In this document: piece after piece, positions 1 to 13,693 of the stretch
Layout of the letters: each line of letters opens with the position of its first letter
How positions within the stretch are numbered: the stretch's first letter is position 1
IMG/VR virus record: IMGVR_UViG_3300035034_003771
Location: 1-22,059 of that record
Origin: a virus
DNA: 22,059 bases
Strand: one strand, 5' to 3'
Program-made: the position numbers and the translations under genes
Notes under the pieces: generated by a model
Told to the model about the DNA's origin: nothing
What the model saw: only the letters and a program-made list of their open reading frames with translations
The model's database searches: none

Positions 1-70
1 AAGATTAGCTGACAAAGCTATCGTTAAACTAGAAAAGTTCAGAGCAAAAAAAGGCAAAACAAATGGCTAG
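1..70 (+). CDS. C-terminal end of a gene cut by the window edge, possibly integrase
   Basis: A + strand frame (codons from base 2) is open at the left edge and encodes 22 residues, beginning RLADKAIVKLEKFRAKKG, before a TAG at 68-70. The helical, Lys/Arg-rich tail and its position about 130 bases before a tRNA-like attachment core suggest the end of a tyrosine recombinase (integrase), since int genes usually lie next to attP. No catalytic residue is visible in so short a piece, so the assignment rests on position. It could be any small phage protein or chance. Confidence 0.35.
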   Translation, partial: RLADKAIVKLEKFRAKKGKTNG

Positions 71-197
71 AAATTTCAAAGAGTGTTGCACAAATGCTAT
101 AAAAAAAGCATGTAAAAACCCTGAAAATAATGCACTTAAAATAGCATCAAAAGCCTTATCAGCTTTAGCTTTCAGCGTTTCACAACTTAACACAAAA

Positions 198-248
198 CCC
201 CGCATTGTAAGCGGTAGGTCATCAGTTCAAATCCGATATCCGGCACCA
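198..248 (+). other. tRNA-Thr(UGU)-like 3' fragment, candidate attP core
   Basis: The sequence matches the 3' half of a tRNA. It has an anticodon stem CCGC/GCGG, a loop at 204-210 containing TGT (206-208, Thr), a five-base variable region AGGTC (216-220), a T-arm with loop TTCAAAT (226-232), the 3' acceptor strand ATCCGGC (238-244), discriminator A and an encoded CCA (246-248). No D-arm or 5' acceptor strand (expected GCCGGAT) lies upstream, so it is not a working tRNA. The T-stem has one A-C mismatch and the outermost anticodon-stem pair is C-T. Such fragments are typical of phage att cores that restore a tRNA 3' end on integration. The exact core borders cannot be seen. Confidence 0.75.
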
Positions 249-302
249 TTTCTTTGGTGCTGTGGCTGTCACTTTCACCACTTACCAACCCAAAACCTAC
301 AA

Positions 303-338
303 AAATTTTCAGAGTCAAAAAAGCCAAATTTTCAGAGT
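303..338. repeat. 13-bp direct repeats near the attachment core
   Basis: AAATTTTCAGAGT occurs at 303-315 and again at 326-338, a 23-bp period (about two helical turns). A related block, TTCAGAG followed by an A-run and GGCAAA, lies at 38-58 on the other side of the tRNA-like core; compare 308-328. Repeats flanking a core at helical spacing are what integrase arm-type sites look like. Binding is inferred, not shown. Confidence 0.4.
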
Positions 339-743
339 TTGGCAAAATTGCCACAGCTATTGGCATTGCTTTTTGCACTTACTATTTCCAGCGCTTGCAC
401 TACACCTATGATGGCACAAGCAACCGACATCAACAGCCAAGTTAACAATACGATCCAGTACGAATATTACAACAGCAATACCCCTCGCCCAATTCAAGAG
501 ATAGAAACCACCAAGCGTGGAAACTGCACTGATATTGCAGCCTATAAACAGCATCTACTCACAAAAGCAGGCATAACCTCTTACAAAGTAAAAGGCACTA
601 CTCTAGACGATCAACAGCATGCGGTCGTCATGTTTTATGAGGGGGGAGAAAGATGGTTTCTTGATAATCGCTACCGATTCCCAACACAAAAAGTTTTTAA
701 AAGATGGTTCTATAACATTGATACAAAGGAAATATTACGATGA
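339..743 (+). CDS. Secreted transglutaminase-like cysteine peptidase (BTLCP/C93-like)
   Basis: The protein is a predicted exported papain/transglutaminase-fold enzyme of about 134 residues. Using the TTG at 339, a Lys-containing N-terminus and a hydrophobic stretch (LLALLFALTISSAC) form a signal peptide. Cleavage could occur at MAQA|TD; the SSAC motif is a poor lipobox. A likely Cys-His-Asp triad follows: Cys63 in RGNCTDIAAY, His94 in QQHAVVMF and Asp109 in WFLDNRY, with family-like spacing. It is short for the family, lacking much of the usual N-terminal part. The start is uncertain: TTG codons at 339, 348 and 360 or ATG at 408 are in frame, and the frame stays open back to ATG 63 only by passing through the tRNA-like fragment, so that longer version is doubtful. 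Its stop overlaps the next start as ATGA. It is probably cargo (a moron gene). The target is unknown; relatives include LapG-type adhesin proteases, but substrate cannot be inferred here. Confidence 0.65.
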   Translation: MAKLPQLLALLFALTISSACTTPMMAQATDINSQVNNTIQYEYYNSNTPRPIQEIETTKRGNCTDIAAYKQHLLTKAGITSYKVKGTTLDDQQHAVVMFYEGGERWFLDNRYRFPTQKVFKRWFYNIDTKEILR

Positions 744-10085: not shown

Positions 10086-11930
10086 TTATGCCCTTAAATA
10101 TGAAGGGTTGCGCTGATTCTTGTTCTGCACTGCTTTTACGGCACGCCCTTCAATCGATGAATCCACTCGCTTTAATGCATCCATAATACGTCGCTCAACA
10201 CCTGCTTCAGCACCACGCGCATCAATATTATAAACAATACTTCCGCCAGATGATGACCCTGAACGCTGCTGTGCTGGTGTTTCTACTGTCACCCGCTCAC
10301 CTGCGCTTGCCATAAAAGACACTGGTACATTATCGGTACCTGGCTTACCTCCCACCTCAAATGATCCACCTCTTGCAAAAGCAGGAACACCAGCTGTGGT
10401 TCCACCACTAAAGTAACTTCCTGCCGCACTTATGCCGGCACTAATCAACCCACCTAATCCGCCGCCACCTCCGCCACCAATTGCATTCTTGGCATTTAAT
10501 TGCTGCTGAATAATATTTTGCAGAACATCCACCGCCACATTGCCAAGGTCTTTCCATGATTTGATTTGACCATTAATCGCTTGCTCTGAAACACTATCAA
10601 TGACACTTTTAAGATCATTACCCGAAGCAGCTGCTTCCCGTTGTTTTTCACTCTGAATATCAAGTGCATTGCCTGCATTCTCAATGGCGCGATTATAGGT
10701 ATCTTGAGTGATTGCACCTTGCTTCTGTAACTCGTTCAATTCAACAACATTGGCTTGATATTCTTCAAGCGGTGTGCGCACTGATTGTGTAATACTTTCA
10801 CCACGCTTCATTAATTCTTGTTGTTCTTTAATAGATTCTAAATCTATGCCACCACTAGGTGCCGAAGGGCTAGGCAATGCTTTAGATACTGATGCAGCAT
10901 TATTCTTTGCCCTTTCAAATTCGTTAGCGATTCCCTTTGCTCGCTCCTCCATGATTTTAAACGCTTCTTTTGATGTATCGCTATCAATAACACCAAACAT
11001 TTCTGATGCTTTAATACCAACAGATGCAAACCCATCACGAGCAGCTCCAAAGAAGTTGCCCAAACCAGTACCAAGCGCATTCACCCATTTTAATGCTTCT
11101 GTAATCTTTGGAATCATATCCACAAAACTTTGTGATAGTTTTGAAATCTCAGGTGCAAGTTCTACTACAGCAGCAGTAACTTTGGTGCTTAAAACGCGTG
11201 ATAGAATATCTAACTGATCATTGGCTTTTTCAGAATTTCTTAATAGGGATTCATCAATCACTAATCCAAGCTCACGTGCTTTTGCAGAAAAAACATCTAA
11301 TCCTGCAACGCCTTGGTTCATCAGATTCACCATGTCCACGCCAGTGCGACCAAATGCGGCATTTGCAAGTGCAGCTTTAAGCGTAGCATCTTCAGTGTTT
11401 GCAATCGCATCTGTCATTAAGCGATAAGCTTCATCGGTAGACTTTGCATTTTGTATGTTAGCCAGGAGCGATGGATCAACTTTCTTTAATACCGTAATCA
11501 ACGAACCGGTACCAGCTTGCGCCTCACCTACACGTTTGGCAAAACCCTGTAACGCTTTATCAAACGCCTCCGTACTCACACCAGACTGGCTTGCAGCAAA
11601 GCGGTATTCTTGCAGTTTAGCCGTAGAAATCCCGATAGAATCCGAGGTCTTAGCAATGGCATCGGCGGCTTCGATTGAGCTTTTAATCAACAACCCTAAA
11701 CCGGCAGCACCAGCAGCCAAACCAACCCCTGCAGGTAGATTTAGCAAGCTTCCTGCAAGGCCAGAAACAGCACCTTTTGTGCGATTAAAACCGCGATTAA
11801 CATCACCTAAAAAACGGTTCATCTTAGTAGAACTAGCTTTTAATGACTTCTCAGCCTTGCCAATATTCTTGGTAAAGGAAGCGCTGTTTGCTTTCAAATC
11901 AACTGCCATCGTGCCGATTTTTATTGCCAC
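10086..11930 (-). CDS. Tape measure protein
   Basis: This 614-aa, helix-rich protein follows the chaperone gene. The N-terminal AVDLKANSASFTKNIGKAEK pattern is common in tape measures. A hydrophobic Gly/Ala segment follows at about 62-83 (NLPAGVGLAAGAAGLGLLI), then long helices, a Gly-rich stretch near 480-490 and the recurring C-terminal motif FARGGSFEVGGKPGTDNVPV. It sets tail length and later helps DNA entry. At roughly 0.15 nm per residue the tail would be up to about 90 nm (inference). The start is GTG at 11930 with GAGGT eight bases upstream; this Shine-Dalgarno overlaps the end of the frameshifted chaperone reading frame. Confidence 0.9.
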   Translation of the reverse strand: MAIKIGTMAVDLKANSASFTKNIGKAEKSLKASSTKMNRFLGDVNRGFNRTKGAVSGLAGSLLNLPAGVGLAAGAAGLGLLIKSSIEAADAIAKTSDSIGISTAKLQEYRFAASQSGVSTEAFDKALQGFAKRVGEAQAGTGSLITVLKKVDPSLLANIQNAKSTDEAYRLMTDAIANTEDATLKAALANAAFGRTGVDMVNLMNQGVAGLDVFSAKARELGLVIDESLLRNSEKANDQLDILSRVLSTKVTAAVVELAPEISKLSQSFVDMIPKITEALKWVNALGTGLGNFFGAARDGFASVGIKASEMFGVIDSDTSKEAFKIMEERAKGIANEFERAKNNAASVSKALPSPSAPSGGIDLESIKEQQELMKRGESITQSVRTPLEEYQANVVELNELQKQGAITQDTYNRAIENAGNALDIQSEKQREAAASGNDLKSVIDSVSEQAINGQIKSWKDLGNVAVDVLQNIIQQQLNAKNAIGGGGGGGLGGLISAGISAAGSYFSGGTTAGVPAFARGGSFEVGGKPGTDNVPVSFMASAGERVTVETPAQQRSGSSSGGSIVYNIDARGAEAGVERRIMDALKRVDSSIEGRAVKAVQNKNQRNPSYLRA

Positions 11931-11935
11931 TTTCT

Positions 11936-12477
11936 TTACCTCTTTTTTAAGTTTGCTTCCGCACGCGCAATTAAATTTTGCTTATCCGTTTCTTCTCTGG
12001 CTTCGTTATATTTAAGTTTAAAATAGGCACGCCACTCGGCTATTTCTGCACTATCGATACGCGACAACATTTCATGCACCGTCATGCCAAGCTTTAATGC
12101 CAAGTCAAAATAGAACCGGCGGCTAGGCCGCCGTATTAGTTTTTTATTGTTGTTTCTTCATCGTTTAATTTATTCAACTTATTAGCAATCCAAAATAAAC
12201 GATCCAATGCTTTAGAACTCTTTTTGCCAAGCGCCTCAGCTTCTTCATTCGTGAATAGTCGGTTGCCTTCGCTGTCCACTACTGCAAATGAAACGGCAAG
12301 AGCGCGAGTGTTCTTTGCACCGGCAATTATTTTTTGCTCTAACGCATCACGCTCTAATCCTGTGAGTGTTCTTACCTTTACTTTTCCACCCCATTCGGGC
12401 ACATCAACAATTTCAGAGGGCAGATCATTAGCAGATAAAATTTGCTGTTTGGTGAGTAGTTGTGCTTCTTTAGTCAT
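11936..12477 (-). CDS. Tail assembly chaperone, -1 frameshift product (GT-like)
   Basis: The frame starts at ATG 12477, reads 113 codons to AAC (12139-12141), slips back one base at A AAA AAC and continues with CTA (12139-12137) for 67 more codons to TAA ending at 11936, giving a 180-aa fusion. The extension has no start of its own that would cover it. It reads as a clear DUF4035-type tail protein: RRFYFDLALKLGMTVHEML, then SAEIAEWRAYFKLKY and a charged tail. This is the T part of a lambda G/GT-type system, which binds the tape measure and recruits tail-tube subunits. The G part alone is the short product ending at 12136. Confidence 0.8.
12117..12145 (-). promoter_or_regulatory. Programmed -1 frameshift signal: slippery heptamer plus hairpin
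   Basis: On the - strand, the heptamer A AAA AAC (12145-12139) lies in the right phase (zero frame ATA AAA AAC TAA) and directly before the stop. After a five-base spacer (TAATA) comes a perfect 7-bp stem CGGCGGC-CTA-GCCGCCG (12133-12117). Slippery site, spacing and stem match the standard layout of -1 ribosomal frameshift signals. Confidence 0.85.
12136..12477 (-). CDS. Tail assembly chaperone, short form (G-like)
   Basis: This 113-aa, charged protein sits between tail tube and tape measure, the G position of lambda. It contains VDVPEWGGKVKVRTLTGLER, a pattern common in siphovirus tail assembly chaperones, and a helical C-terminus ending ETTIKN. Termination at TAA (12138-12136) gives the abundant short form, while slippage at the preceding A AAA AAC gives the long form. 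The two forms are expected to coat the tape measure in a fixed ratio during tail assembly and to be absent from the virion. A terminator upstream at 12502-12525 should lower its expression relative to the tube. Confidence 0.8.
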   Translation of the reverse strand: MTKEAQLLTKQQILSANDLPSEIVDVPEWGGKVKVRTLTGLERDALEQKIIAGAKNTRALAVSFAVVDSEGNRLFTNEEAEALGKKSSKALDRLFWIANKLNKLNDEETTIKN

Positions 12478-12550: not shown

Positions 12551-12964
12551 TTAACTTTCTGCACGAGTAAGCGTTCCAGCAGATACGATAGAAAGAGAAG
12601 CCTTTGCGGTATCACCCACACCATTTCCAAACGGATTATAAGTAGTAATTAAACCACTACCTGAATAGTTAGGATTGCTCGTGCTTACACTCCCTGAATC
12701 TGGTCGTACAATGCAAGTAACAGCATCGCCAGCATCTGCCAGCGCCCAAATCAAATCATCTTCTGCACTATTTGCAAAGTCCTGGTTAAATTCAATCTCA
12801 AGTGACCAGCTCTTTAAACCACCAAGATTGATTCTAGTACCATCACCCATTGCCGTTGCATCTTGTGCCTCGGTTTCAAAACCAAGTGCCACATTACTTA
12901 CGTGATCACTAATATCATTGCCACCAATGCTGACAAATGCATTTGTTAAAACTTGTACACCCAT
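12551..12964 (-). CDS. Tail tube protein (short paralogue)
   Basis: This 137-aa protein is a likely tail-tube subunit. The N-terminal 60 residues share roughly 40% identity by eye with the larger neighbour upstream: GGNDIS, LGFETEAQDAT, GTRINLGGL and a following beta strand. Its size is nearer a minimal tube protein (one beta-sandwich domain). It has a strong Shine-Dalgarno (AAGGAG) and is followed by a terminator, both consistent with high expression. Which of the two paralogues forms the main tube cannot be decided from sequence. It starts 12 bases after the other gene ends. Confidence 0.7.
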   Translation of the reverse strand: MGVQVLTNAFVSIGGNDISDHVSNVALGFETEAQDATAMGDGTRINLGGLKSWSLEIEFNQDFANSAEDDLIWALADAGDAVTCIVRPDSGSVSTSNPNYSGSGLITTYNPFGNGVGDTAKASLSIVSAGTLTRAES

Positions 12965-12976
12965 GGTATTTTCTCC

Positions 12977-13693
12977 TTATAAGATGCCCATTAGAACGAT
13001 GAATGAAAAAGAAGGATCCGAGCCGGTGATTGTAAAATCTGATCGCCACCACGTATCCGTTATTGCGCCATCAAATGTCATAAATTGACTTCCGATGGCA
13101 TTAACTTGATCGAATGTAATTCGTGTCGTTTCACTGCCTGAAAAATCATCAGCAGCATCACTTTCAATCATCACATCCAATGTATCCGAATCAGACGCTT
13201 CTAATACGTGAAGCGCTGCCCAAATTTTCTGAGAAGAAGAAACAGCACCTAGCTGTTGCGCATCACTATTTGCACTACTGCTTACATCTTCTTTATTTGC
13301 TAAAATATTACCTCTTATTAACCTATCAGCACCAACTGCTTCTGCACTAAAGCTATGTAACTCACCAACCTGAGCGCCTAGATTATATGACGAATGAAGT
13401 GCTTTGAAGAAATAAGCAATACTGCCTTCACTAGAGGCATCTGCAAAACTCAATATATTTGTATTATTGCCAACATTACCAAATAAAAAACCTGGATCAA
13501 CAATAGGATCCACATACCCTTCAATCGAAGCATTCACAGCTCGCAATCCCGCTTTATTAATGCGTGTATCATTGCCAAAGGTGGTAGCGTCTTGTGCTTC
13601 TCGCTCATAACCAAGTCCAATCGCATTCGCTGCGCCGGTTATATCGTATCCACCAAACCATATCTTTTGGTTACTCAGTGTTTGAATGCCCAT
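12977..13693 (-). CDS. Tail tube protein (long paralogue)
   Basis: This 238-aa probable major tail protein shares with the following gene the N-terminal MGxQxLxN start, GGYDIT, LGYEREAQDAT, and NDTRINKAGL. It is about 100 residues longer, with added beta-rich segments such as AYFFKALHSSYNLGAQ and a C-terminal TWWRSDFTITGSDPSFSF block. The extra part could be a surface domain or simply a larger tube fold. Translation is linked to the DUF3168 gene: GAGGAAGAATAA of that gene's end supplies its Shine-Dalgarno. Confidence 0.7.
   Translation of the reverse strand: MGIQTLSNQKIWFGGYDITGAANAIGLGYEREAQDATTFGNDTRINKAGLRAVNASIEGYVDPIVDPGFLFGNVGNNTNILSFADASSEGSIAYFFKALHSSYNLGAQVGELHSFSAEAVGADRLIRGNILANKEDVSSSANSDAQQLGAVSSSQKIWAALHVLEASDSDTLDVMIESDAADDFSGSETTRITFDQVNAIGSQFMTFDGAITDTWWRSDFTITGSDPSFSFIVLMGIL

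Follow-up and report, generated by a model that had tools for sequence, protein, structure and literature searches.

Does the tail assembly chaperone gene of this virus end at its zero-frame stop codon, or is it extended into a second reading frame by a programmed −1 frameshift, as in the G and GT products of phage lambda? The original prediction was that a heptamer, a spacer, a hairpin and a downstream open frame together form a complete system of this kind. We followed it up in a window that comprises the whole 22,059-base virus record. The minus strand of the window carries a siphovirus structural module with genes for terminase, portal, protease, capsid, connectors, tail terminator, tail tube, G, tape measure, distal tail and tip. 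Within this module the G-T pair sits between the major tail protein and tape measure genes, in the order tail tube, G, T, tape measure. The features on which the argument depends are as follows.

12551..12964, minus strand: tail tube (major tail) protein, upstream of G; PHROG 4574 major tail protein, E 5e-27
12477..12136, minus strand: gene G, tail assembly chaperone, zero frame, 113 aa; PHROG 344 tail assembly chaperone, E 5e-23
12145..12139, minus strand: slippery heptamer A_AAA_AAC, in phase X_XXY_YYZ; direct reading
12138..12136, minus strand: zero-frame stop UAA, abutting the heptamer; direct reading
12133..12117, minus strand: probable stimulatory hairpin, CGGCGGC-CTA-GCCGCCG, a perfect 7-bp stem with a 3-nt loop, 5 nt after the heptamer
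11936..12140, minus strand: putative T extension, −1 frame after the slip, 67 codons plus stop; PHROG 337 (tail protein), E 7e-9
11936..12477, minus strand: predicted GT fusion by −1 frameshift, 180 aa; matches PHROG tail families 14766 and 25875 across the junction
10086..11930, minus strand: tape measure protein, the gene after T, GTG start; PHROG 8462 tail length tape measure protein, E 2e-36

On our reading of the sequence, the GAGG motif of the tape measure gene overlaps the end of T. The tail tube gene at 12551-12964 (−) is adjacent to a paralogue at 12977-13693 (−), the two sharing 34% identity over 142 positions (E 4e-15); Arthrobacter phage Kovu likewise has two major tail protein genes ahead of the chaperone. 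Elsewhere in the window, the C-terminal part of an open reading frame at 63-743 (+) matches the transglutaminase-like superfamily (PF01841, E 1.7e-7). The stretch at about 196-248 (+) resembles, by eye, the 3′ half of a tRNA gene, with an anticodon arm (CCGC-ATTGTAA-GCGG), a T arm and CCA. It would fit a tRNA-Thr(UGU) attachment site; ARAGORN found no complete tRNA there.

Gene G, the T extension and their junction

Rhodococcus and Streptomyces phages carry annotated tail assembly chaperones that are homologous to G, and a genome scan with G as the query returned one locus, in Saccharopolyspora kobensis. Its 3′ end reads ...ACA ACA ATA AAA AAC TAA, with the heptamer in phase and the zero-frame stop directly after it, exactly as predicted. 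As a check on chance, we scanned 25 minus-strand open reading frames (6724 codons) for in-phase X_XXY_YYZ heptamers. There are 38, and at just one of them, AAAAAAC at 12145..12139, does the −1 frame pass the stop of its own gene; among the other 37, the best local folding energy is −6.9 kcal/mol. A long −1 frame beyond a stop is not in itself rare, because overlaps between genes create such frames. The combination of a heptamer, a −1 frame continuing beyond the stop and a strong fold exceeds chance.

Starting at 12157, ahead of the G stop, the −1 frame stays open up to its own stop at 11938..11936, and the 67 codons predicted to follow the slip were confirmed. A tblastn search of isolated phages with the GT fusion returned 48 records, and in 14 of them at least 80% of the query is covered; the best-ranking matches consist of two pieces, G then T. 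The closest T is found in a viral contig, L056, and is 81% identical across all 67 residues. In this comparison, nucleotide differences fall 9/5/27 by T-frame codon position (pS 0.55, pN 0.108), and both remaining frames are interrupted over T in the window as well as in L056. T is a conserved coding frame, and this pattern of substitution indicates that it is under purifying selection. Between the window and L056 the G stop changes from TAA to TGA, while the T frame retains Leu-Ile.

With regard to the identity of the extension, Pfam family PF06223 (Phage_tail_T) matches the homologous T regions in 6 of 8 relatives, the best at 4.8e-15, and the fusion of Moraxella phage Mcat11 also passes PF16459 (Phage_TAC_13); the Pfam search gave no match of the window's own T to PF06223. 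The extension had been thought to resemble DUF4035. That identity was rejected, as Pfam gave no DUF4035 match for the window's T at E values up to 10 or for the relatives at E values up to 1; the extension belongs instead with PHROG 337 and probably, through its relatives, with PF06223. A profile search of the PDB returned only designed repeat proteins and weak helix-turn-helix matches, which are not meaningful.

Conservation of the heptamer and hairpin in related phages had been proposed, beside junction peptides, as a check on the original prediction: the heptamer and the frame of T are kept, and the hairpin is kept in the nearest clades. The corresponding position in L056, L031, L059-L062, L064-L068 and the Moraxella group also carries an in-phase A_AAA_AAC; elsewhere the junction carries GGGAAAC, GGGAAAA, CCCAAAA or GGGTTTC. 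Relative to G, T occupies the −1 frame in almost every relative. About one-third of the distinct relatives compared have no strict heptamer; L015 and L029 belong to this group and carry T in the +1 frame, so the −1 heptamer is not universal in the wider family. The direction of the G-T shift is known to differ among phages, being −1, −2 or +1 (PMC5009743). The end of G in L015 and L029 contains TTT CCT near the junction, possibly a +1 slip site. A two-part join is annotated in four isolated-phage records (Dubu, phiSASD1, Jflix2 and Kovu), in each case with a −1 shift. The join is missing from the records of seven Moraxella phages, Mcat1, 2, 3, 5, 9, 10 and 11 (L127, L130, L128, L129, L047, L131 and L051, respectively), where T is listed as a gene apart, labelled 'tail protein' and given a start codon of its own.

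Expression of the split frame

The PHROG 344 and 337 assignments, the gene order, the annotated relatives and the conserved junction all agree with the G/GT system that was predicted. We therefore regard it as very probable that the locus undergoes a lambda-type G/GT programmed −1 ribosomal frameshift in a siphovirus tail assembly chaperone gene; both the occurrence of the shift and its efficiency we infer from anatomy and conservation. Most ribosomes would translate G and terminate at the UAA that adjoins the heptamer. In a minority, tRNA-Lys on AAA and tRNA-Asn on AAC would slip back by one base, and the hairpin 5 nt downstream would slow entry of the mRNA during the slip. Slipped ribosomes would then read CUA AUA CGG ..., yielding the 180-aa GT protein. 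One point against this reading is that, in E. coli, the A_AAA_AAC site shifts less readily than A_AAA_AAG (PMC5009743). If the parallel with lambda holds, the G portion would bind the tape measure protein and the T portion would recruit the tail tube protein, and neither G nor GT would stay in the virion; homology and gene order point to such assembly roles here.

The two frames could in principle also be joined before translation. An extra A inserted by RNA polymerase at the run of six A in the heptamer would put G and T into one frame of the mRNA, and both the run and the right frame after one added base are present. Six A is, however, short for polymerase slippage. Slippage on this run is very unlikely, because the relatives use mixed heptamers at the junction (GGGAAAC, GGGAAAA, GGGTTTC and CCCAAAA) that contain no long run; the downstream hairpin and its spacing, moreover, fit a ribosomal mechanism. 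An error of assembly or sequencing, with G and T forming a single frame in the real genome, might be entertained for a virus record that comes from a public collection with reads absent. The identical split position recurs, however, in the independent contig L056 and in isolated phages, and because these share the split we consider such an error excluded for practical purposes.

Alternatively, T might be translated by itself rather than as part of a fusion, starting at the TTG at 12103 or the ATG at 12085. Both codons are in frame inside the extension, and the annotations of Mcat9, Mcat11, Madraxi, Dryad and P1312 show T as a gene by itself that has its own start. A start at either codon would, however, forfeit the conserved residues L, R and F at the beginning of T; no ribosome-binding motif was seen ahead of TTG 12103 or ATG 12085, and the −1 frame is already open before the G stop is reached. 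We rate separate translation as improbable, on a par with polymerase slippage. The same two codons qualify the earlier statement that no start codon covers the extension, which holds for its full length but not within it. The expectation that gene calling would leave the region empty has to be modified as well, in that callers may give a start-truncated T, as they did in the Moraxella Mcat phages and several actinophages.

The downstream hairpin and the abutting stop

Both the five-base spacer and the 7-bp GC-rich hairpin of the original prediction are present. The hairpin has a folding energy of −14.4 kcal/mol; shuffling the 29-nt stretch 200 times gave no fold as strong. Folds this strong occur at approximately 10 of 19,172 coding-strand positions, grouped at about three places. 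A stable hairpin or pseudoknot 5-8 nt after the heptamer is the spacing rule for stimulated −1 frameshifting (PMC4066793), and the 5-nt spacing in the window falls within this range. L056 carries the identical 17-nt hairpin. The hairpin sequence encodes RRPSRR, and because the CGN and CCN codons of this peptide themselves favour self-complementarity, we generated 1000 synonymous versions of the T frame from local codon usage as a control for the hairpin energy. Against this control the real energy is unusual in the window (p = 0.002) and in L056 (0.001), and also in L065 (0.007), L060 (0.016) and L008 (0.020). Seven Moraxella-group sites are likewise unusual (0.002-0.015), with a differing peptide (LIADKS and similar). 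In the same test the hairpin energy is not unusual in L069, L074, L076, L104, L107, L110 and most high-GC actinophages, and several relatives with A_AAA_AAC have no hairpin.

Pairing within the stem was also assessed in an ungapped alignment of ten relatives that have the motif L..RP.R.F; these are not independent samples, and the set was picked by peptide motif. In this alignment 70% of the stem cells are paired, compared with 60% in shuffles, and the covariation score is 0.210 compared with 0.067, with 1 of 500 shuffles scoring as high. At columns 15/27 and 18/24, both sides change in several sequences. A register shifted by +3 also pairs, in 73% of cells, because the CGN codons repeat; its covariation is lower (0.130). 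In the lineage of the window, then, the hairpin is stronger than its codons require. It is probably a selected, lineage-specific element, with selection beyond the encoded peptide acting in the near clades only, and it most likely stimulates the frameshift. On balance we lean towards the broader view that some G/GT sites, the window's and those of the Moraxella prophages among them, depend on a hairpin under selection that lies 4-6 nt beyond A_AAA_AAC and whose stem sequence and register have turned over; lambda, in contrast, is said to need no stimulator.

The zero-frame stop directly after the slippery site had in addition been expected to increase slippage. In canonical tandem slippage, the stop codon has yet to enter the A site when the tRNAs shift. 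Among the papers searched, none tests the effect of a stop that abuts a −1 heptamer in bacteria, so we judged this claim on comparative data only. Two Moraxella-group loci that share their T peptide and hairpin differ in this respect, the stop lying 0 nt from the heptamer in L083 (AAAAAAC TAA TC) and 3 nt in L080 (AAAAAAC TCA TAG). In L058, L060-L062, L064-L068 and L112 the distance is 36-54 nt, and outside the Moraxella group the relatives elsewhere span 24-54 nt; in published sets the mean heptamer-to-stop distance is 26-36 nt (PMC10885494). Judged by these distances, zero is the short extreme of the range, recurrent but not maintained. Since adjacency of the stop is not conserved, the proposed stimulatory role is unsupported. 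The natural alleles at the G stop of L080, L083 and further Moraxella-group loci offer a ready test of stop adjacency.

Comparison with known G/GT systems

The G/GT two-product system is well known, and what this locus adds is apparently a hairpin under selection. The frameshift site leaves the known picture of tail assembly unchanged; it provides a correct annotation for one phage gene and for a group of Moraxella prophages whose records omit the join. The relatives also form a small natural series, with the same heptamer, with or without a hairpin, and with the stop at 0, 3 or about 50 nt, which could be used to test what sets the G:GT ratio. If a hairpin-dependent subset does exist, control of this ratio would rest on RNA structure in some lineages, and the natural Moraxella alleles would separate the effects of the hairpin from those of stop position.

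The gpG/gpGT pair of lambda, the subject of Levin (1993) and of Xu, Hendrix and Duda (2004, 2013, 2014) as covered in the review PMC5009743, resembles the present locus in having a chaperone gene between tail tube and tape measure and a −1 shift near the end of G. A further likeness is the T domain of the Phage_tail_T type, which is found in the window's relatives. The binding partner of lambda G is the tape measure protein, and that of lambda T is the tail tube protein (PMC5009743). The slippery site of lambda is G_GGA_AAG (PMC7618472), and certain tailed phages, for which the lambda work is cited, are described as having no stimulatory signals (PMC5009743); in contrast, the window has A_AAA_AAC abutting the stop and then a strong hairpin. 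The same A_AAA_AAC serves G-T frameshifting in the haloarchaeal Haloarcula virus HCTV-2 (PMC5009743), an archaeal virus that is likened here by description rather than by sequence. Streptomyces phages Dubu and phiSASD1 have homologous G and T and a heptamer that abuts the stop (GGGAAAC TGA), but differ in the heptamer itself (GGGAAAC compared with AAAAAAC), in the length of T (115-118 codons compared with 67) and in having no unusual hairpin. Moraxella catarrhalis phages Mcat9 and Mcat11 share AAAAAAC TAA at the junction, and in Mcat11 the heptamer is followed, after 5 nt, by a GC-rich hairpin; in these phages, however, the stem sequence and register are different, T has 109-114 codons and the records carry no join. 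The greatest likeness is to the IMG/VR contig L056, which has the same heptamer, an abutting stop, the identical hairpin and a T of 81% identity, and which differs in its TGA stop (TAA in the window) and in approximately 20% DNA divergence across T.
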